A stretch of DNA of 64,000 nucleotides, from positions 124,001-188,000 of the forward strand of contig JABWAT010000002.1 in NCBI GenBank assembly GCA_013360915.1. The letters run 5' to 3'. This DNA comes from Bacteroidota bacterium. GTDB lineage: Bacteria > Bacteroidota > JABWAT01. Every line of letters starts with the position of its first letter. The stretch's first letter is position 1. The notes below the pieces were generated by a model. It was not told the DNA's origin. It did not search any database and saw nothing but the letters and a program-made list of their open reading frames with translations. Both the position numbers and the translations under genes were made by a program. Positions 6,162 to 49,600 of the stretch are shown piece by piece.

Positions 6162-7169
6162 ATGTCAAAACGTATCCTAAATAAAAACCTCGGAAAAGCA
6201 AGGGCACAAAAGAATGATGAGTTCTACACTCAGCTGTCCGACATTGAACAGGAAATGAAGCATTACCGCCACCACTTCAAAGACAAGGTGGTTTATTGTA
6301 ATTGCGATGACCCGAGAATCAGTAACTTTTTCAAGTACTTTTCGCTTAATTTCAAAACGCTTGGGTTAAAGAAACTCATTACAACCTGCTATAAAAGCCA
6401 AAACCCAGACCTGTTCAGCACAGGTGATTCCGAGAGGGCCATTTACCTTGAGTACGATGGTACCGCAAACCTGAATGAGATCCCCTCTTTGAGCGACACT
6501 GAGATAACTCACCTGCAAGGAGACGGGGATTTCCGGAGCAGTGAGGCTATTGAGCTTTTAAAACAGGCAGATATTGTTGTCACAAACCCACCGTTCTCTC
6601 TATTTCGTGAGTTTGTATCCCAATTAATTGAGTATAACAAGAAGTTCCTAATAATTGGCCACCAGAACGCAATTACCTACAAAGACATTTTCAAACTAAT
6701 ACGAGACGGGGATGTTTGGCTCGGGGTTGAGAATGGTGGAACAAAATGGTTTGCCGTCAGAGATCACTATGATATCACAACTGAATCCCGCAAGAAGATA
6801 GAAGGTGGTCAAAAGTATTTTAGTATGGGGAACGTCAACTGGTTTACGAATTTAGATCACCCCAAACGTCATGAAGAAAAAATTCTTTATAGAAACTACG
6901 ATGAGAACGAATATCAGAAATTTGACAACTACGAAGCGATCAATGTTGATAAATTGAAGGACATTCCCGCGGATTATTTCGGAGTGATGGGGGTCCCTAT
7001 TACCTTTCTTGAGCAACACAATCCATCCCAGTTTGAGATCATCGGTCTGATTGCAGGAAACATAAAGGGCCTGGCCGGAATCCCTTCATCGTCTGGAAAA
7101 GATGGTCCATATATCAACGGAAAACTGAAATACGGTAGAATTCTGATCAGAAGAATACAGCAACCATGA
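6162..7169 (+). CDS. EcoRI-type adenine-specific DNA methyltransferase
   Basis: A 335-residue protein of the EcoRI modification methylase family. Features are KNDEFYTQLSDIE near residue 18, YCNCDDPR near residue 46, and the catalytic NPPFSLF beginning at residue 142. It should methylate adenine using SAM; the target is not predictable from sequence. Length is normal for the family. It overlaps the downstream nuclease gene by 4 bases (ATGA). The ribosome-binding site is weak (AAAAAGG at long spacing). Confidence 0.82.
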   Translation: MSKRILNKNLGKARAQKNDEFYTQLSDIEQEMKHYRHHFKDKVVYCNCDDPRISNFFKYFSLNFKTLGLKKLITTCYKSQNPDLFSTGDSERAIYLEYDGTANLNEIPSLSDTEITHLQGDGDFRSSEAIELLKQADIVVTNPPFSLFREFVSQLIEYNKKFLIIGHQNAITYKDIFKLIRDGDVWLGVENGGTKWFAVRDHYDITTESRKKIEGGQKYFSMGNVNWFTNLDHPKRHEEKILYRNYDENEYQKFDNYEAINVDKLKDIPADYFGVMGVPITFLEQHNPSQFEIIGLIAGNIKGLAGIPSSSGKDGPYINGKLKYGRILIRRIQQP

Positions 7170-8248
7170 AAATCGAACTCAAAGAAATCACTATCAGCGA
7201 GCTTACAGAGGGATATAAGGACAACGCAGAGGGTGGTGTTGTTGGATATGGCGGAAGGTTGGACATTCGCCCACCATACCAACGAGAGTTTATTTATAAG
7301 GACAAACAGAGGGATGCGGTCATTGACACGATCATGAAGGGATTTCCTCTGAATGTTATGTACTGGGCAGTAGGGGAAGACGGGAACTTTGAACTTATTG
7401 ACGGCCAACAGCGAACGGTCTCTATCTGTCAATATGTGAACCGGGAATTCGCTTTCATGTTCAGATATTTTCAGAATCTCGAATCAGACGAGGTTGACCG
7501 GTTTCTAAATTACAAAATTATGGTCTATCTGTGCAGCGGGTCTGATAGCGAGAAACTGCAGTGGTTTAAAACGATCAATATTGCCGGCGAGAAACTGACC
7601 GACCAGGAACTGAGAAACGCGGTATATTCCGGCCCGTGGGTAACAGACGCAAAAAGGTATTTCAGTAAGAACGGGTGCCCGGCTTACAATTTCGCGTCTG
7701 ATTACATGACAGGTACTGCCATCCGCCAGGAATATTTGGAGACAGTGATTGATTGGATTTCGGTGGGAAATATTGAAATCTACATGGCCAAGCATCAGAT
7801 GGATGACAATGCAATCGAACTCTGGCTATACTTCCAGGGGGTTATAAACTGGGTAAAAGCCACCTTTCCAAAATACCGCAAAGAAATGAAGCGGGTGCAA
7901 TGGGGACCGCTTTATGAGCGATGCAAGGAAAACAAATACGATCCGAAACAACTCGAAAAGCGGGTTTCAGAGCTCATGCTTGATGATGACGTGACAAACA
8001 AGGCTGGCATCTATGATTTTGTCCTAACGGGAACAGAGAACATGCTTAATATCAGAGCATTCTCTGAATCACAGAAACGACAGGCTTATGAGAAGCAGGA
8101 CGGGAAGTGTATGGTCTGTGGGAACAGATTCGATTTTGATGCCATGGAAGCAGACCATATCACCCCATGGCATGAAGGCGGGAAGACCAATCAGGAAAAC
8201 TGCCAACTCCTCTGTAAGTTTGATAACAGGCGAAAGTCAGGAAAGTAA
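7166..8248 (+). CDS. DUF262 and HNH nuclease, likely restriction partner
   Basis: A 360-residue protein. The N-terminal DUF262 (GmrSD-N/ParB-like) domain shows DIRPPYQREF near residue 34 and DGQQR at residues 79-83. The C-terminal HNH domain shows CMVCG, then ADHITPWHEGGKTNQEN (about residues 329-345) and a final CKFDNRR, so both zinc-type Cys pairs and the catalytic His are present. DUF262-HNH proteins include GmrSD-like modification-dependent nucleases and restriction enzymes. Coupling to an EcoRI-type methylase argues for a restriction-modification pair that spares DNA methylated by its partner. Confidence 0.75.
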   Translation: MKIELKEITISELTEGYKDNAEGGVVGYGGRLDIRPPYQREFIYKDKQRDAVIDTIMKGFPLNVMYWAVGEDGNFELIDGQQRTVSICQYVNREFAFMFRYFQNLESDEVDRFLNYKIMVYLCSGSDSEKLQWFKTINIAGEKLTDQELRNAVYSGPWVTDAKRYFSKNGCPAYNFASDYMTGTAIRQEYLETVIDWISVGNIEIYMAKHQMDDNAIELWLYFQGVINWVKATFPKYRKEMKRVQWGPLYERCKENKYDPKQLEKRVSELMLDDDVTNKAGIYDFVLTGTENMLNIRAFSESQKRQAYEKQDGKCMVCGNRFDFDAMEADHITPWHEGGKTNQENCQLLCKFDNRRKSGK

Positions 8249-8257
8249 ACCCCACCA

Positions 8258-8284
8258 ACAAAAAAGGGGTCTCAATGACCCCTT
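8258..8284 (-). terminator. Rho-independent terminator (minus strand)
   Basis: A perfect 8-base stem AAGGGGTC / GACCCCTT with a 5-base loop lies between the convergent nuclease and DinD-like genes. On the minus strand the stem is followed by TTTTT, so it best serves the DinD-like gene, though it may act in both directions. Confidence 0.7.
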
Positions 8285-8324: not shown

Positions 8325-9374
8325 TCAGTTCCTCATCATACCCGGAGTCTGGTTTGACTTTACCATGTCAGAAACGATCCTCCACAGGTTATTGGATTGC
8401 CCGTCAACAAAGATCCGGTTCACGTAAGACCCTTTCATTCTCCCGCGGCTTTTCACATCATAGTGGTACCTGTATTTCAACTGCAGATAGATCGAGGACC
8501 AGACAAAGGAATAGTTTAGCTTATTCTCTTTGCAGTACCGTCTCACCATCCAAGACAGATTCGCCTGAAGCGTAAGGGGATCGGCAGGCATATCGGCCAG
8601 GACAGGTTCAAACAGGTTTGTCTGAGCAACGACAGGTACATTGGGAGGAAGACGATGTTGGTTGTTTGCTACTTCTCTGGTCGCGCCAGCGAGTTTTGCA
8701 GAGATATTGCCCAGTTCCACGATCATCTTTCCGAGTTCAACGAAACCGTTGGTCATTTTCGTTTCCAGGCGGCTTTCCATATCGCCAAGCTCTTCACGGA
8801 CGATACGAACAACGTCCGTCCGCGACAACGAAGCCACGCCGGTTTCTGCGCGTCTGGTTTGAAGCGCAAAGTATGCCTGAGCGGAAGCGATCTCTGGTTT
8901 ACGCGGATCCCCGTTCATTGCTACCAGGTAGCAGGCAATCCGGGAGAGTTGGTAATCCCGGGAAAGTTGTTGTTTATCACCGAATCCCCTGTCAACCATT
9001 CGGCTGACCGGTCGGAAATGAGTAAAACCCTCAAAATCGGGATTTCCTGCATGGTGTGCGGCGCCGCCTACCATGTCAGAACCCTCAAAATCGGGGTTTC
9101 CAGACTGCTTCCCGGCTCCGGGAACCAGTTCAGAGGCAATGTATTGCAGGGTTTTTTCCGGAACGAGACCGGTGTTGATCGCGGACTGAACAGCCCGGCG
9201 AATGGATTCCTCAAACTTTCGCCAGTCAACATACCCGAGCAGCTTCATCAGATCCCTGGCCGACCAGAATTCGGTGCCATCCGGGTATCGTTTGACGATC
9301 GAGTCAAAAGGAGAGGTAACGTAGTTGTACGCCAGCTGATTGGTCAGGCTGGCAGATTGCGGGGTAAAATTCAT
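8325..9374 (-). CDS. DinD-like DNA-damage-inducible family protein
   Basis: A 349-residue protein. The N terminus (FDSIVKRYPDGTEFWSARDL, then LLGYVDWRKFEE) and the segment DYQLSRIACYLVAMNGDPRK near residue 140 match the DinD/BRO-N-type family; E. coli DinD inhibits RecA. The middle is coiled-coil-like (GDMESRLETKMTNGF) and the C-terminal 80 residues look like a separate domain. QTNLF (bases 8610-8624) resembles a beta-clamp-binding pentapeptide. An internal duplication occurs near residues 90-117. GGAG lies eight bases before the ATG. Two structured elements lie immediately upstream. Confidence 0.7.
   Translation of the reverse strand: MNFTPQSASLTNQLAYNYVTSPFDSIVKRYPDGTEFWSARDLMKLLGYVDWRKFEESIRRAVQSAINTGLVPEKTLQYIASELVPGAGKQSGNPDFEGSDMVGGAAHHAGNPDFEGFTHFRPVSRMVDRGFGDKQQLSRDYQLSRIACYLVAMNGDPRKPEIASAQAYFALQTRRAETGVASLSRTDVVRIVREELGDMESRLETKMTNGFVELGKMIVELGNISAKLAGATREVANNQHRLPPNVPVVAQTNLFEPVLADMPADPLTLQANLSWMVRRYCKENKLNYSFVWSSIYLQLKYRYHYDVKSRGRMKGSYVNRIFVDGQSNNLWRIVSDMVKSNQTPGMMRN
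9027..9101 (-). repeat. in-frame 54-base direct repeat
   Basis: Two 21-base copies, 20 of 21 identical, begin at 9027 and 9081, exactly 54 bases (18 codons) apart. They encode GNPDFEG twice inside the DinD-like protein. This looks like a recent tandem duplication in a linker. Confidence 0.8.
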
Positions 9375-9410
9375 TTGGTGCTCCAGTGATTTGTTTTTGA
9401 TAGAAACAGG

Positions 9411-9478
9411 GGCCGAGACTTATCAAAGCGGACACTGGTCCCGCCCCCACAAGCCTCGCGACAAGGGGAGTCTCGGCC
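9411..9478. other. branched inverted-repeat element 1 (possible structured RNA)
   Basis: A perfect 10-base outer stem, GGCCGAGACT (9411-9420) and AGTCTCGGCC (9469-9478), encloses two further hairpins. One is GCGGAC (9428-9433) with GTCCCGC (9438-9444), containing one bulged base. The other is CCCC (9445-9448) with GGGG (9465-9468). The whole is 68 bases and could fold as a three-way junction. It lies 37 bases upstream of the DinD-like start on the minus strand. On the plus strand a weak TTGGTG-N17-TGATAG (9375-9403) would start transcripts near 9410. There is no long T-tract, so it is not a simple terminator. Confidence 0.5.
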
Positions 9479-9489
9479 AAAAATCATTG

Positions 9490-9591
9490 CCGGAAGTTTG
9501 AGTCAGTTGGTTGATCGGTTTGGTAACCGGTTTGCTCGCTGACGCGGAGGCGAATTAACGCCAGTGTTTTCTTTGATGCTTCAAACTTCGG
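9490..9591. other. branched inverted-repeat element 2 (possible structured RNA)
   Basis: An 11-base outer stem with one bulge pairs 9490-9501 with 9581-9591 (AAGTTTGA with TCAAACTT at its core). Inside are GTCAG (9502-9506) with CTGAC (9539-9543), which caps the hairpin CGGTT-TGGT-AACCG (9516-9529), and a second hairpin GGCG-AATTAA-CGCC (9549-9562). The inner hairpin extends by two G-U wobbles only if read on the plus strand. It begins 12 bases after element 1. Together they fill the 241-base gap 9375-9616, where no open frame is supported. Confidence 0.5.
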
Positions 9592-9616
9592 AAAGACGGC
9601 TGAAAATGTCAAGGGG

Positions 9617-10036
9617 TTAGCGGTTGAGTGCCACCCATAGTTCGAGTTTCATCATACCCAACATCTTTGGTTGCGCTACACTGTTAATTGCGAAGTAAGA
9701 TAGTTTGTTAAATCCTGTTTCTGGATTCACCTGCCATTGCATGCGAAGTGTGTCAACAGCGGCGGTTTTATCGTCATAGTGAAGCATTTTGAGTTCAACA
9801 ACATGTTGTTTCTCTTCTCCACGAAAGTACCTCCAATCAATCTTACCCTTCAGGCCGGCGGCATGAGCAATAAACGTCTCCCAATTAACGCCTTCCCCCA
9901 TGGCATCGGATTTCCTTACTATATCAATGATTTTCTTATCAGCTTCACTCTCACCAGTCACTTCTTTTTTGCTTGGCTGGCATCCGACCAGAGCAGAAAG
10001 GACAAAGACAATGATAAATAGATGATTACGTTTCAT
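9617..10036 (-). CDS. phage-encoded lipoprotein
   Basis: A 139-residue protein starting MKRNHLFIIVFVLSALVGCQ, a type II signal peptide with lipobox ALVGC and lipidated Cys at residue 19. I chose the ATG at 10036 because AGGAA precedes it and upstream starts would ruin the signal. The mature part is mixed alpha/beta with no recognised domain. It could be a superinfection-exclusion lipoprotein (Llp/Cor type) or a spanin-like product; neither is shown by the sequence. Confidence 0.65.
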   Translation of the reverse strand: MKRNHLFIIVFVLSALVGCQPSKKEVTGESEADKKIIDIVRKSDAMGEGVNWETFIAHAAGLKGKIDWRYFRGEEKQHVVELKMLHYDDKTAAVDTLRMQWQVNPETGFNKLSYFAINSVAQPKMLGMMKLELWVALNR

Positions 10037-10627: not shown

Positions 10628-10906
10628 TTAAGGTTTCTTTGGTCTGATTTGGCCAGGCATCACCCAGATGAGGACCTTATTATCTGGGGTATATTTGATT
10701 TTGATCGTTTTACCCCGCCTTTTAGCCTCACTCTTTGCTTCTCGCCCGATAGCGTAGAGTTCCTTTTTATCGGAGGCAGTGACCTCAACGCATTCATCTG
10801 AATTTTCGCGTATGAATACCTTTAATTCATTGAATTTGCCAGAGGGGCCTCTTATGATACCAATGGCACTGTTAAACTTTTCAGAACTGATTTTCTTTAA
10901 TTGCAT
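10628..10906 (-). CDS. small paralogous protein, copy 1
   Basis: A 92-residue basic protein sharing its plan with the next two upstream genes: an N-terminal strand MxxxxISxExF, a central F-x(6-8)-(C)VEVTASDKKEL, a helix with A-x(2)-A-KxxGKxIxI, then DNxxxIxV. The pattern suggests an alpha/beta fold of about 80 residues. AAGGAA precedes the ATG. Function unknown; a DNA- or RNA-binding role is possible from charge only. Confidence 0.6.
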   Translation of the reverse strand: MQLKKISSEKFNSAIGIIRGPSGKFNELKVFIRENSDECVEVTASDKKELYAIGREAKSEAKRRGKTIKIKYTPDNKVLIWVMPGQIRPKKP

Positions 10907-10929
10907 TGTTTGGGTTCCTTATTGGACAC

Positions 10930-11181
10930 TTATTGTTTTGGATAAATGCTTACGATAAATGAAAGATTGTCGCAGTACCGTATATCAATAGCTTTGCCAT
11001 TTTTTTTCGCATGAATGTACGCATAATTGATGGCCTTCTTGACTTGCTTTTTGTCATCTGCTGTGACTTTCATGTATCCGATACGGGTATTGCGCATAAA
11101 ATCTCCTAATGGCTTGTGCCGGCCAAAGAGTTTATGGGATGCATTTTCAAATGTCTCTGTAGATATGCGTTGCATTTTCAT
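10930..11181 (-). CDS. small paralogous protein, copy 2
   Basis: An 83-residue protein, start MKMQRISTETF, with the shared core VTADDKKQVKKAI, HAKKNGKAIDIRY and DNLSFIVSI. It is closest to copy 1. Its start overlaps the stop of copy 3 as ATGA, so the copies are translated together. Function unknown. Confidence 0.6.
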   Translation of the reverse strand: MKMQRISTETFENASHKLFGRHKPLGDFMRNTRIGYMKVTADDKKQVKKAINYAYIHAKKNGKAIDIRYCDNLSFIVSIYPKQ

Positions 11182-11450
11182 GGTTTGTTCTCCCCGGCAA
11201 TAATAATTGATGTCACCCGAATAAGTGCCGAATTTGGGCCTACTCTTTTTACCTCAATCTGTTTGCCAACTTCTTTTGCTGCTTTTCTGGCGCTCAGTAT
11301 AGCCGACCTGATTCTACCGCTGGTTTTACAATCAACCTGAACACACCCATCTGTTGTTTCAAATACGAACCGGCGAAGTTCATGGTACATATACCCTCTG
11401 TGAGGAGGTAACCTGTCGAACTCTTTTTTGCTGACTATTTCGAATTTCAT
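11178..11450 (-). CDS. small paralogous protein, copy 3
   Basis: A 90-residue protein, start MKFEIVSKKEFDRL, with the related core CVQVDCKTSGRIRSAI, ARKAAKEVGKQIEVKRVG and NSALIRVT. It is the most diverged copy. AAGGAG lies upstream and the start overlaps the upstream gene by 4 bases. The KTSGRIRSAILSARKAAK segment is strongly basic. Function unknown. Confidence 0.6.
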   Translation of the reverse strand: MKFEIVSKKEFDRLPPHRGYMYHELRRFVFETTDGCVQVDCKTSGRIRSAILSARKAAKEVGKQIEVKRVGPNSALIRVTSIIIAGENKP

Positions 11451-22981: not shown

Positions 22982-23083
22982 ATGGTTGTGTGGATCCGGG
23001 CGAATCTTCACGCGGATAACCGGATGATCGTAAGTGGGCGGAAAGACCGTGCACGACAAACACAACAGCGTATGCACCAGTAG
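22982..23083 (+). CDS. possible micro-protein before the tRNA
   Basis: A 33-residue basic frame (MVVWIRANLHADNRM, then a KDRARQTQQR tail) ends ten bases inside the tRNA gene. A TTG at 22973 could extend it by three residues. The ribosome-binding site is weak. Real status is uncertain. Confidence 0.25.
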   Translation: MVVWIRANLHADNRMIVSGRKDRARQTQQRMHQ

Positions 23084-23146
23084 GCTAATGGTTAGGCCAC
23101 CACCCTTTCACGGTGGTCGTTCCGGGTTCGAGTCCCGGCTGGTGTG
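23074..23146 (+). tRNA. tRNA-Glu (UUC)
   Basis: A 73-base cloverleaf. The 7-base acceptor stem GCACCAG / CTGGTGT contains one G-U, the D stem is GGCT / GGCC, the anticodon arm is CCACC-CTTTCAC-GGTGG with anticodon TTC, and the T arm is CCGGG-TTCGAGT-CCCGG. The discriminator base is G and CCA is not encoded. It probably supplements host glutamate decoding during late expression. Confidence 0.93.
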
Positions 23147-23225
23147 CAGCGTAGCGTTGGATGGCGTTTATGTTACAATAAATGGCAACAACGAAGTTCA
23201 ATATCGGGCAGTAGCCTGATCGGGG

Positions 23226-43600: not shown

Positions 43601-46600
43601 GGAACACAGACGAAGCCGGTCGAGAAACCAACCCAACCAGAGGCATCCAATTACGAACCGTTTACCGAATATGATGAAGCCGGGGTTCCCAAGGGAGTAA
43701 AGCGCTTTGAAGTCAATCTAAACGCCATGGTCCTTCTGGGCAAGACACTGGAATTCCAGTCGTATGCCGCCGGCCAGTTTGAGCCGGAAGACATTCAAAA
43801 GGCAGTTACGGTCCTCAAATCGGAAGGCACATGGACTTACCAGTCATTCAGGTCATCAATCGCCAGTGTTGTTGGTTTCGACCGCGACAGGTACAATACA
43901 CTTCTGACCCAGATGCCAATCAGAGCAACCGGTGGAGATTCCTTTGAATTCGATCCGGACCATGATCCTTCACCGATCAGGACATCACAGCTGACACCGG
44001 AGCAGAAAAACCTTCTGAAATCATACACCGGCTGGGGAGGAACGGACATTCAGGATGCCAATGAGTTTTATACCCCATCAGAGGTAGTGAAAGCCCAGTG
44101 GGATGCAATGAGATCGCTGGGATATAAAGGTGGGATTATGTTGGAACCCAGTTGCGGAACCGGCAGGTACATTGATCATCGACCAACCGACACCATCATG
44201 GTCGGAGTCGAATTGGACCCCATTTCTGCCTTTGTCGCCAAAGTGACACACACGCAGGACAGCGTAATGCACAGCGCGTTTGAGCAGTTTAGCCGCGGGA
44301 ATCAGATTAAATTCAACGGCACGATTGCCAACGTCCCGTTCGGGGACCGCCAATCAAACCCGACCTACGACCAGACTTCCATGGCTTATGGAAAACACGA
44401 AGACTATTTTATTCTGAAATCCCTGCAACACGGAGCACCCGGGTCCGTCCACTCATTTATCGTACCAACCGGTTTCCTCGAAAACAAGAAAATAGAAACC
44501 ATGGATCCGCTTGCAGATGAATCTCTTCTGTTGACGGAGGAAGGGAAGAAAAAGCTCAAATATTCCCAAAATGGCGAGATCGCAAAGGACATTCAGGCAT
44601 ACGGTGAATTTGTTGGTGCCATCCGGCTTCCAAACAAGACTTTCAGGGATGCAGGAACGAGCGTCACCAGTGATGTTGTCTTTTTCCGCAGGAGACCCGA
44701 TCAGGTGGCAAAGATGGTTCAGTCTGGAAAAGCATCTGACCTGATTGACCCATGGATGAGTAGTCACTACTTCAAAGCAAACGAGCACCACATAATCGGA
44801 GAACGCACAACCGGGAACTGGGGAAGCGAAGCAGCCAAAGGCGATTTTGATCCTGATCGTTTCCGGCAGATTGCTGAGGAATTGGCCGGAAAGAAGCCAG
44901 CTGATTATTCAAAACTCGGCATTCCATCGGAACCTATCGCGCCACCCAAAGAAGGAGACGTAAAAAAACACAATGGTCAGGATTGGATTTTCGCCGGTGG
45001 AAAGTGGACAACCAGGCAGTATGCCACAGAACTCGGAGACTTCTCTGACTACGGATACACAAGCATTCATGACATGAAAGCAAAGTTCCAGGACCTTGAC
45101 CATGCCATGACCGCCACGCATGACGTGACAGCTTTGGCCGACCATCCTGTTATTAAAACCTACGATCCGAGATTTGCAGCGTTTCTTAACGGATTCCGGA
45201 GCGCCATCCAGCCGATCAAAACAGAAGAAGGGAAACAAAAGGTCTTCCGGGCTATGATGTTGGGACGGATATTCCATTCCGGATATACGGCCGCTGCCAA
45301 CGGGGAACCATTTGACCAGTCGAAGATTGATCGCCTGATCGATGCCACAAAGAGGTTCACAGCCATTCACGGGAATCCGAAGGATGACAAGGATATCCAG
45401 AACGCCGCACGAATCAACAGTTATGCTGCAGTATTCCAATCCATTCATGATGATCATGGTCAGATCAACCCGGTTATCGGTGGACGGACATTGGCAGGGG
45501 AGCGGGTATCGGCTCAGAAGCACGACCCGGTGAATCCTCACAGTATCATGAAAGCCCTGTTTGCTGATAGCATTCCTCCCACGATTGATGAGATTTACCA
45601 GCGGTACACCGGCGGAAAATCAAAAGAAGCAGTCGAATCCTCTTTGCTTGAACACCCGGAAGTTGGAACAAACGGAACGCATATCATCCCATTCAACCAT
45701 GCCGTTTCCGGACAGGTCTATGACAAGATTGATCAGTATCGGAAAGCAATGGAGACTGCAACCGGTCTCTATAAGGAAAAACTGCAAAAGCAGATTGAAC
45801 ACATTGAACAGAATAAACCGGACGTAAACCTTGACGACATCCGGTTCAATATCCAGTCTAAATACGTCCCGGTACAGGCAAAAAACGATTTCATATCAGA
45901 GTACCTGGATAACGACCTAATCCGGATCCGTGAAGTCAATGGTACGTTTATTGTTGAACCGACCGAGAACGAAAACCGGTCCGGGTGGAGAAATTACGGG
46001 ATCAGCCCGGCTCACGAAGACATCACAATCTCTGCCTTTGAAGATTATCTGAATGGTGTCAGCCGGTCAGGACGAAGCGATGACCTTTCCATGCTTGACG
46101 AGGATTTCCGGTCATTCATCGAATCAAACCCTGAACATCAGGGAGCAATCAAAGACGCATACCTGAAGCAGATGAAGAACTATGTGGAGCCAGAGTATTC
46201 AATGGCACCCATGGAGATCCCCGGCTTCGTGAAGAAGAACCCGAAAACCGGCCATGAAGAGTATGTGCTTCATCCGTACCAATATGCCTCTCTCCGCAAG
46301 TTTATGGACCAGGGCAGGGGAATAATCTCGCTGGACGTTGGATTGGGAAAAGCGCAGGATTTAAATTCTCTCCTTCTTTTAGCAACAGGCGATTTTATCA
46401 GAATGGGTGATATCAAACGCGGCGACATGATAATTGATGGTGATGGAAAACCAACAGAAGTCATCGGCGTTTTTCCTCAAGGGTTAAAACCGGTCTATGA
46501 AATTACATTCTCCGATGGAGCGAAAGCCAGGTCATGTGACGAGCACCTATGGCCTATTTACACAGCAAATAATATAGCGAGGAAACAACCATATAGCGTA

Positions 46601-49600
46601 ATTGAGTTAAAAGAGATCCTCAATGAACCGCTGAAAAGAAAGTCCGGTGCGTACCGGTTTGCAATACCAATGCTTTCATCTCCGGTGGACCTTCCTAAGC
46701 AAGAGCTTCCAGTCGAACCTTATGTTATGGGATTACTATTGGGTAATGGGTGTTTCCCGGGTAAAGGGCATAGTGGATTAACAATCAGCACAGCATCTGA
46801 ATCAATAATTGATCGAATCAGACAATTGTATCCAGATTGTGAAGTAAAACATCAGTCCAAGTATGATTATATCCTGAACGGAACTGGTGGCACAGCAATA
46901 AAACAGGCCTTAAAAGAACTTGGATTATATGCATCACGTTCATTTAACAAATTCATTCCGCCAATTTATCTGAAATCTTCAGTAGAACAAAGATTGTCGC
47001 TGCTGCACGGTCTAATGGATACGGACGGGTCTGCATCATGTAATAAACGTGGTGCAACCACAGTAGAGTATTCTTCTGCATCCGAACAGCTGGCATCGGG
47101 CGTTCGCCATCTTGTTTTATCACTCGGAGGACAAGCATGGATTACCGTTAAAAACGCTCCGAAGTATTCATATAAAGGCGAGATCCGGACAGGACGAGAC
47201 AGTTATCGGGTTCATATAAAAATGCCAGGAGAAATAAATCCGTTTGACTACAAGGCAGGCCGGTACATTTCTCCGTCAAAATACCCAGTACGCAGGTATA
47301 TTGATAACATTCAGTTTGTTGGTAATTTAGAAACCCAATGTATTGCCGTTGACTCGCCAGACCATCTATACCTTACAAATGATTTTGTGGTTACACATAA
47401 CACAGCCTGGGCAATTGCCATGTCATCTATGTTGCAAGGAACAGGCCAGTACAGACGGGCTGCCTTTGCCGTTGAGAAAAACAACATCTCGAAATTCTTT
47501 CATGAGATCACCGAGTGGTCTCCTGATGCAAAGGTAGCAGTTGTCGGTTACCGGGTGAAGAAAGACAAAGACGGGAATGCAGTTCTTGACCAGAAAGGAC
47601 TTACCCAGCTGGAACCAGACCCGAACTGGGATGCCAATCTGACCAGCATCGCAACCGGAGCGCACACGCACATCATTATTCCACATTCGGTTCTATCCCC
47701 ATCAACCAACAGCGACAGATATCTGAGTCTGGCCGGAGAAAATTACAAACAACACGAACTCGACCTGCTGAAAATGACGGCTAAGGGAATGGCTAATGAT
47801 CTGGCCAACAAAGCTGGGCTTACTGACTATCGCTTTGACTCGGACAAAATCACCACCATTGAGGAGCTTGCTCGGGAAATCGACAGCCTCGCACTGAGAG
47901 CGGCCGCAAATATCAAAGGGAAGGATGCTGACAAAAAGCAGGCCCGGTTGATTGAGAAGTCAGCTGAGAAAATACAGAAGGCGCTGAAAGCAATCCGGGA
48001 CGTGAATCCGTCCCTCCGCCCGGGTAAAACAGGTTACGGTAACGTCATCAGTTTTGAGAATCTCGGAATCGATCATTTGTTCCTTGACGAGGCACACAAC
48101 TTCAAATCTCTGTTTGACGCTCCGGACACAACCGATGCCAGGGGAGAGTCGTCAGGACTTACTGGCACCACCAGCAATGCAGCAATCAATATGTTTATGC
48201 TTTCACGGCATCTGCTGAAGAAGAACAACAACCGCGGGGTGTTTTTCATGACGGCCACACCGATTACAGCAAAGCCTCATGAATCTTTCAACTTATTGAG
48301 TATGGTTGCCCCCGACCTGATGAAAAAGGAATTCGGTATCGACAACGTGACGGATTTCATGAACACATTCGCCAACGTCACGCAACAGTACAAATTTGAC
48401 ACCAGCGGGAACGTGGAACTTGCACAGGTTGTGAACGGATTCAAAGAGGCGAATGGTTTCCGGAATTTCCTCTTCCGTCTGCTTGACATGAAGAACGCAT
48501 CAAACGCAACCGTTTTCGACCACAACGAGAACAAACTGAAAGTCGGGTTAAAACTTCCAGAGGAAGTAAATCACCGGCACATTGTCCCGCCGACAGAGTA
48601 CCAGAAGGAGAAGCTCAGAGAATTAATCTCTGCTATTAATGCCATGGTATCCGATAGAGACAAAGGCGAACTCCCGAACTGGATAAAGGAAACAGGCAAA
48701 CGTGGTCCGCGAAGAGTGTTCACGAATATGGATACGGGTTCTGAAATCGGGGTTCAGAACCTCATGCAGCGAATGGACCGGCTTTGTGTCGATGAATGTT
48801 TCGATCCGCATTCAAACGGATTTGACCCAGAGAACCCACCCGAGCGGTTCAAGGTTCTTTGCAGCAATATCGCAGAATCCTATAAAAAGGGAGGTAAGAA
48901 CCTCGTATTCCTTGACGGGTTCAACTTTGGGAAGAACGGAGACTATCACAAAGAAATCGCAAATTACCTCACCAGAAAACACGGCATTCCAGCAGAGGAG
49001 ATAGCGCTGATTCAGGGAAATTCCTCTGAAGATGACAGGTACAAGGCATCGACCGATTACCGGGAAGGCCGGAAAAAGGTGATCATTGGTGGAACCGCTA
49101 TGGAAACAGGGATGGATCTGCAAATGGGAACAACAGATATCCACCATTTTGATCAACCATGGAACTCGACCAATATCCAACAGAGAAACGGCCGGGGAGT
49201 TCGCCAGGGGAACCCGGTTTCCCATGTAAACATCCACCACTATTTCACGGAGAATGGATACGATTTCTACCGGAACATGACCCAGCAGCGGAAAGCCGGT
49301 ATGCTTGACCACCTGTATAACGGCACGACCGACACAATTTCCAGCGATGAATTTGAAGCCATCGAGAAGATGAGATCACTGGCAATGTTAAGTCCAAACC
49401 CTGAAAGGGCATTAAAAGACATCGACACCCGGATGGGTAAGTACGATGAGATGAAACGGGCAGGTGAGACGGAGAAGCTCGGACGGGACACGACCAGTTA
49501 CAACAAAGCCATGAGACGGCACGCTGAATACAAAGAAAAGCACGATAATATCAAGGGAAGACACGGTAATATTAAATTCAGCGGATACGATTGGAGAAGC

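Follow-up and report, generated by a model that had tools for sequence, protein, structure and literature searches.

C4 RNAs are antisense RNAs known from Proteobacteria and the phages of this group (PMC2864571, PMC5320573), with Weinberg et al. reporting c4 in Proteobacteria and phages and the c4-a1b1 element in gammaproteobacteria and phages (PMC2864571). Within the c4 RNA, the word b' covers the ribosome-binding site, while the word a' binds upstream and confers specificity; RNase P frees the RNA at a GG at the foot of its closing stem, and a GG start is typical of C4 RNAs (PMC5320573). Another phage antisense RNA, the sar RNA of phage P22, pairs with the antirepressor mRNA and stops translation initiation (PMC12197685). 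The phage P1 record annotates a1, b1, c4, a2, b2, and icd in that order, and in the fold of the P1 C4 RNA a closing stem holds two hairpins that abut each other and a 7-nt linker; b' lies in the loop of hairpin 2. The Rfam C4 consensus also has 7 unpaired linker positions.

The same order of parts is found on the minus strand of the window, by which we mean the whole 64-kb stretch of Bacteroidota DNA analyzed here. We consider it highly probable that this region is a c4-type antisense control unit guarding an antirepressor gene. Both of its folded elements lie in a 242-nt intergenic gap (9375-9616). In the order of the leftward transcript, the features are as follows:

9617-10036, minus strand: lipoprotein-like gene, co-directional and upstream, from which transcription may read through (ORF whose start resembles a lipobox)
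9490-9591, minus strand: element 2, structured leader with the upstream target copy, proposed counterpart of P1 a1/b1 (fold and shuffles)
9571-9577, minus strand: a1 word AUCAAAG (repeat; mean probability of being unpaired 0.83)
9561-9567, minus strand: b1 word ACACUGG (repeat, within element 2)
9411-9478, minus strand: element 1, candidate C4-like antisense RNA of 68 nt, three-way junction (fold and shuffles; topology as in P1 C4)
9433-9438, minus strand: b' antisense word CCAGUG at the tip of hairpin 2 (fold; mean probability of being unpaired 0.74)
9421-9427, minus strand: a' antisense word UUUGAUA in the 7-nt junction linker (fold and accessibility)
9396-9402, minus strand: a2 target word UAUCAAA, exact complement of the entire linker a' (mean probability of being unpaired 0.88-0.92)
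9383-9388, minus strand: b2 target word CACUGG, exact complement of b', overlapping the Shine-Dalgarno sequence
9381-9384, minus strand: Shine-Dalgarno-like GGAG, 6 nt before the ATG (sequence)
8325-9374, minus strand: target gene (ATG at 9374-9372), 349-aa DinD/Bro-N-type protein, probable phage antirepressor

The structures of element 1 and element 2 are genuine. Whichever strand is folded, element 1 forms a three-way junction, closed by a perfect 10-bp stem (GGCCGAGACU/AGUCUCGGCC on the minus strand) and holding two inner hairpins. It is slightly more stable on the minus strand (-33.4 kcal/mol, z -2.44, 4/200 shuffles) than on the plus strand (-31.3 kcal/mol, z -3.43, 0/200 shuffles). Element 2 is closed by an 11-bp stem with one bulge, and its minimum-energy fold contains three inner hairpins on both strands, at -42.6 kcal/mol on the plus strand (z -3.77) and -28.1 kcal/mol on the minus strand (z -3.17). 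Across the two elements, z thus lies between about -3.4 and -3.8 on the plus strand and between about -2.4 and -3.2 on the minus strand. The original prediction, made from the sequence alone, had placed the elements at these coordinates, which the folds and the inverted repeats bear out, and its account of element 1 agrees with our folds; for element 2 it gave the correct outer stem and bulge but only two inner hairpins, and it counted the gap as 241 bases. Folding 9400-9600 as one piece, which it had proposed, gave excess stability over shuffled sequences on each strand (z -3.12 on the plus strand and -2.45 on the minus strand). No tRNA or tmRNA was detected at the two elements, and its suggestion of a new phage structured RNA outside the recognized riboswitches and tRNAs holds in that the locus lies inside a prophage and has no Rfam match.

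The most informative feature of the region is a two-word repeat that the original prediction had not mentioned. In a search for repeats, ATCAAAG-NNN-ACACTGG proved to be common to element 1 on the plus strand and element 2 on the minus strand. The pattern ATCAAA-N4..9-CACTGG occurs 3 times in the 64-kb window, where 0.10 copies are expected, and all three lie inside 195 bp, at 9561-9577 (minus strand, in element 2), 9422-9438 (plus strand, in element 1), and 9383-9401 (minus strand, at the start site). The minus-strand complement of the middle copy falls in the element 1 RNA, and the order along a minus-strand transcript is target, antisense, target. The b' word consists of the 4-nt loop of hairpin 2 plus one paired base on either side, and the predicted two-word duplex of a'/b' with a2/b2 has an energy of -13.1 kcal/mol. 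While a1, a', b', and a2 are mostly open, b2 is only about 44% unpaired, and this moderate accessibility counts against a c4-type reading. At its 5' end on the minus strand, element 1 begins with GG preceded by a U run.

In the mechanism that we propose, a leftward transcript would carry first element 2 with a1/b1, next element 1 with b' and a', and last the antirepressor gene with a2/b2 at its start site. Element 1 would probably be cut loose at the base of its closing stem by RNase P-type processing and, acting in trans, would pair through its 7-nt linker a' and its hairpin-2 tip b' with a2/b2. This pairing would hide the Shine-Dalgarno GGAG and stop translation of the antirepressor, which we propose would keep the prophage silent and allow related incoming phages to be resisted. 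The a1/b1 copy in element 2 could compete for the same antisense surface and thereby tune the release or activity of the RNA; for P1, we know of a1/b1 here from the annotation.

Element 1 shares with the C4 RNA of phages P1 and P7 (RF01695) a three-way junction in which two hairpins abut and a 7-nt linker follows on the 3' side. In both, the linker and the tip of hairpin 2 hold antisense words complementary to a2/b2 at a downstream start site, and a second target copy (a1/b1) lies upstream. Both belong to a temperate-phage operon that encodes an antirepressor, a probable one in our case, judging from homology to annotated antirepressors and from the integrated prophage. The spacing is also close: b1 lies 66 nt from the antisense RNA in P1 and 82 nt at the window locus, the antisense RNA lies 3 nt from a2 in P1 and 8 nt here, and b2 lies 10 nt from the start in P1 and 8 nt here. 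In contrast, no sequence similarity is detectable, the closing stem of element 1 has 10 bp rather than 17 bp, hairpin 1 of element 1 contains an internal loop, the antisense words differ, and the window host belongs to the Bacteroidota rather than the Proteobacteria. The RNA would furthermore target the antirepressor-like gene itself; no icd-like gene intervenes, in contrast to P1. Similar to the c4-a1b1 leader (RF03163), element 2 is structured, precedes the antisense RNA, and holds the first target pair, but it is larger than the P1 element, and its 11-bp stem encloses both words and three hairpins. The sar RNA of P22 is likewise a phage antisense RNA against an antirepressor, while the two-word three-way-junction design and duplicated targets of the window locus are c4-like.

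The Rfam covariance models for C4 (RF01695) and c4-a1b1 (RF03163) returned no match at the window locus at the gathering score or at any other reported level, for element 1 or for element 2, although both models find P1 (68.8 bits and 51.0 bits, respectively). RF01695 still gave no match at element 1 when thresholds were relaxed up to E 10, a relaxed-threshold Rfam search of the region yielded chance-level matches only, and MAFFT, given element 1 and P1 c4, did not bring their helices into register. By anatomy and proposed mechanism, the locus is c4-like; by the Rfam criterion, it is not a member of C4 or c4-a1b1.

To assess the arrangement as a whole, we used a uniform test with three requirements: a pair of 6-nt words no more than 50 nt from a start codon, upstream complements of both words in reversed order, and a second such target pair still farther upstream. 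The P1 c4 region passes this test. Among 320,000 dinucleotide shuffles of the leader, 85 pass, and in 4 of these the two antisense words are also mostly unpaired. When 12,539 start codons in 352 sequences (the collected loci and the window) were put to the test, this locus alone passed, and a similar test over both strands of the window found a sole qualifying place, the leader of the antirepressor-like gene. A two-target test that dispenses with the upstream copy is passed by about 8-12% of shuffles and is weak alone, so the claim rests on the full arrangement. We would like to note that the shuffle and start-codon figures serve as a guide and are not strict p-values, because the test was devised after the pattern had been noticed; the match to the P1 fold and order is independent of the shuffle figures.

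The gene downstream of element 1 encodes a 349-aa protein that is probably a phage antirepressor, judging from its relatives, whose label comes from annotation and not from experiment. It matches Bro-N (PF02498) with 23.3 bits (E 1e-4), below the curated cut-off of 25.6, and the DinD model NF008573 partially with 126.9 bits, below the cut-off of 242. Its N-terminal half is about 40% identical to Gordonia and Mycobacterium phage proteins annotated as 'antirepressor'. The best phage matches come from Gordonia, Mycobacterium, Corynebacterium, Akkermansia, and Planktothrix phages, many of them annotated as antirepressors, and several of these relatives' genes lie near immunity repressor or excise genes. 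The alignment with phage antirepressors is clear, with 33 invariant columns, and homology to Gordonia phage Pickett gp41 amounts to 39% identity over residues 10-184. The gene had originally been called SOS-type and DinD-like; the DinD likeness is partial, and the gene is better read as a DinD/Bro-N-type phage antirepressor. The protein is unrelated to P1 Ant: BLASTP found no similarity between the two, and the ANT domain (ANT/KilAC, PF03374), which P1 Ant1 has (E 1.2e-30), is absent from the window protein. Unlike the Bro-N/DinD-type phage relatives examined, which lack a c4-like leader, the window protein also has an extra, internally repeated insert. A 54-bp tandem duplication (9026-9133, 74% identical) in the gene produces a repeated GNPDFEG segment in this insert, which is absent from the homologues. 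Directly 3' of the gene, at 8264-8284, there is a good minus-strand intrinsic terminator (AAGGGGTCATTGAGACCCCTT plus a T run), and the antirepressor-like gene is therefore probably the last in a leftward operon. The lipoprotein-like protein encoded upstream has no family match.

The window locus lies in an integrated temperate phage of 89.7 kb, which is a setting where a c4-type switch makes sense. An integrase gene lies beside tRNA-Lys, and a 45-bp copy of the 3' part of this tRNA recurs 89.7 kb away, before a kynureninase-like gene. On the contig that contains the window (contig C2), the features are:

112476-112520 and 202134-202178: 45-bp direct repeat (tRNA-Lys 3' part), probable attL/attR
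about 112671-113996: integrase gene

The main phage repressor was not found in the prophage, which is a point against the c4-type reading. The host GyrB is 82% identical to that of an unclassified Bacteroidetes MAG, followed at 60-65% by Chlorobiaceae, Ignavibacteriales, and others.

Phages, plasmids, and 60 relatives were searched for sequences homologous to the region, with no significant result. A covariance model built from element 1 alone found just element 1 itself in 395 Bacteroidota genomes, and searches with the antirepressor, lipoprotein, capsid, and terminase proteins yielded no close relatives in viral contigs, genome contigs, or 297 Bacteroidota genomes. Across 109 loci encoding protein relatives, the window locus included, there is no second such arrangement, which also speaks against a c4-type reading; none of the bacterial dinD homologues or the 80 viral-contig relatives has such a leader. 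The Rfam C4 model had no match above cut-off in the 395 Bacteroidota genomes, a negative to be read with caution, as the 14 control genomes likewise gave no match; one sub-threshold match of 27 bits among the 395 genomes was taken as chance. The exact motif ATCAAAGNNNACACTGG occurs in at least 120 stretches of viral contigs, apparently by chance, with none convincing among the matches listed.

Every part of the unit lies on one transcript, and the release of element 1 is a step that we infer, which would also suit a cis-only attenuator in the leader of the antirepressor mRNA, with no RNA released. The antisense segment would pair either with element 2, leaving the start open, or with the start site, closing it, and a1/b1 and a2/b2 would indeed compete for a single antisense surface. 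We regard this as improbable, since element 1 is shut by its perfect 10-bp stem and presents its words at a hairpin tip and a linker, like a released c4 RNA, and since the minimum-energy fold of the leader shows no pairing of a'/b' with either target. Repeated operators are common at phage immunity genes, and the three ATCAAA...CACTGG copies lie near the likely promoter region, so they could instead be operators for a DNA-binding repressor at the antirepressor promoter, with the folds incidental or cruciform. This seems very unlikely to us: the gap between the halves is not constant (5 or 7 nt), the middle copy is inverted and has its two halves precisely where a c4-type junction has its linker and hairpin tip, the antisense words are also unpaired in only 4 of 85 chance triples, and one copy overlaps the Shine-Dalgarno sequence.

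The original prediction preferred the plus strand, as a structured RNA or a DNA structure. It pointed to wobble pairs, which do favour the plus strand in element 2, and element 2 is indeed more stable on the plus strand (-42.6 vs -28.1 kcal/mol), which also weighs against a minus-strand c4-type reading; element 1, by contrast, is not more stable there. The weak plus-strand promoter that it described is present, with a candidate at 9341-9370 that has 9/12 matches, but this score is at chance level, as chance alone would give 3.1 sites of this quality in the scanned stretch. The promoter scan found no sigma-70-like promoter on the minus strand, a further point against the c4-type reading. Nevertheless, the plus orientation offers the complementary words no start site, and we judge a plus-strand element to be highly improbable. 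We prefer the minus strand because the words make sense only in its transcript, in which element 1 lies antisense to the gene's start site; a protein-binding DNA structure, also suggested originally, finds no support in words that are complementary as minus-strand RNA.

With no Rfam match, no homologue, and a target protein unrelated to P1 Ant, the proposed antisense control unit would work like c4 and is not a demonstrated member of the family. It is possible, and we suggest it tentatively, that it represents a separate c4-type class in Bacteroidota prophages, independently arisen or recruited, unrelated in sequence to proteobacterial c4, and controlling a non-homologous Bro-N/DinD-type antirepressor; one example does not discriminate between a far-diverged C4 and an independent invention. 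A c4 plan with a new sequence and a non-homologous protein in a Bacteroidota prophage suggests a lysogeny switch that is very old or repeatedly invented, and it points to c4-style lysogeny control outside the previously known Proteobacteria phages. DinD-like phage genes would thereby gain a concrete regulatory context. A search for two-word target arrangements that are self-complementary, in place of one by sequence profile, can thus uncover RNAs of this kind that covariance models miss.

Other features of the prophage were observed in the window. A tRNA-Glu (TTC) gene is located at 23074-23147. At 6162-8248, an EcoRI-type adenine methylase gene adjoins a GmrSD_N/HNH nuclease gene, possibly forming a phage-borne restriction-modification pair, and at 10628-11450 three small similar-looking minus-strand proteins (83-92 aa) without a family match are encoded in tandem. 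A 4246-aa phage protein (37700-50440) contains an intein-like insert of about 350 aa with a LAGLIDADG endonuclease domain (46352-47401). The insert splits a Walker-A-like motif between GLGK and T, and its first residue is Ala and its last residues are HN before the Thr.
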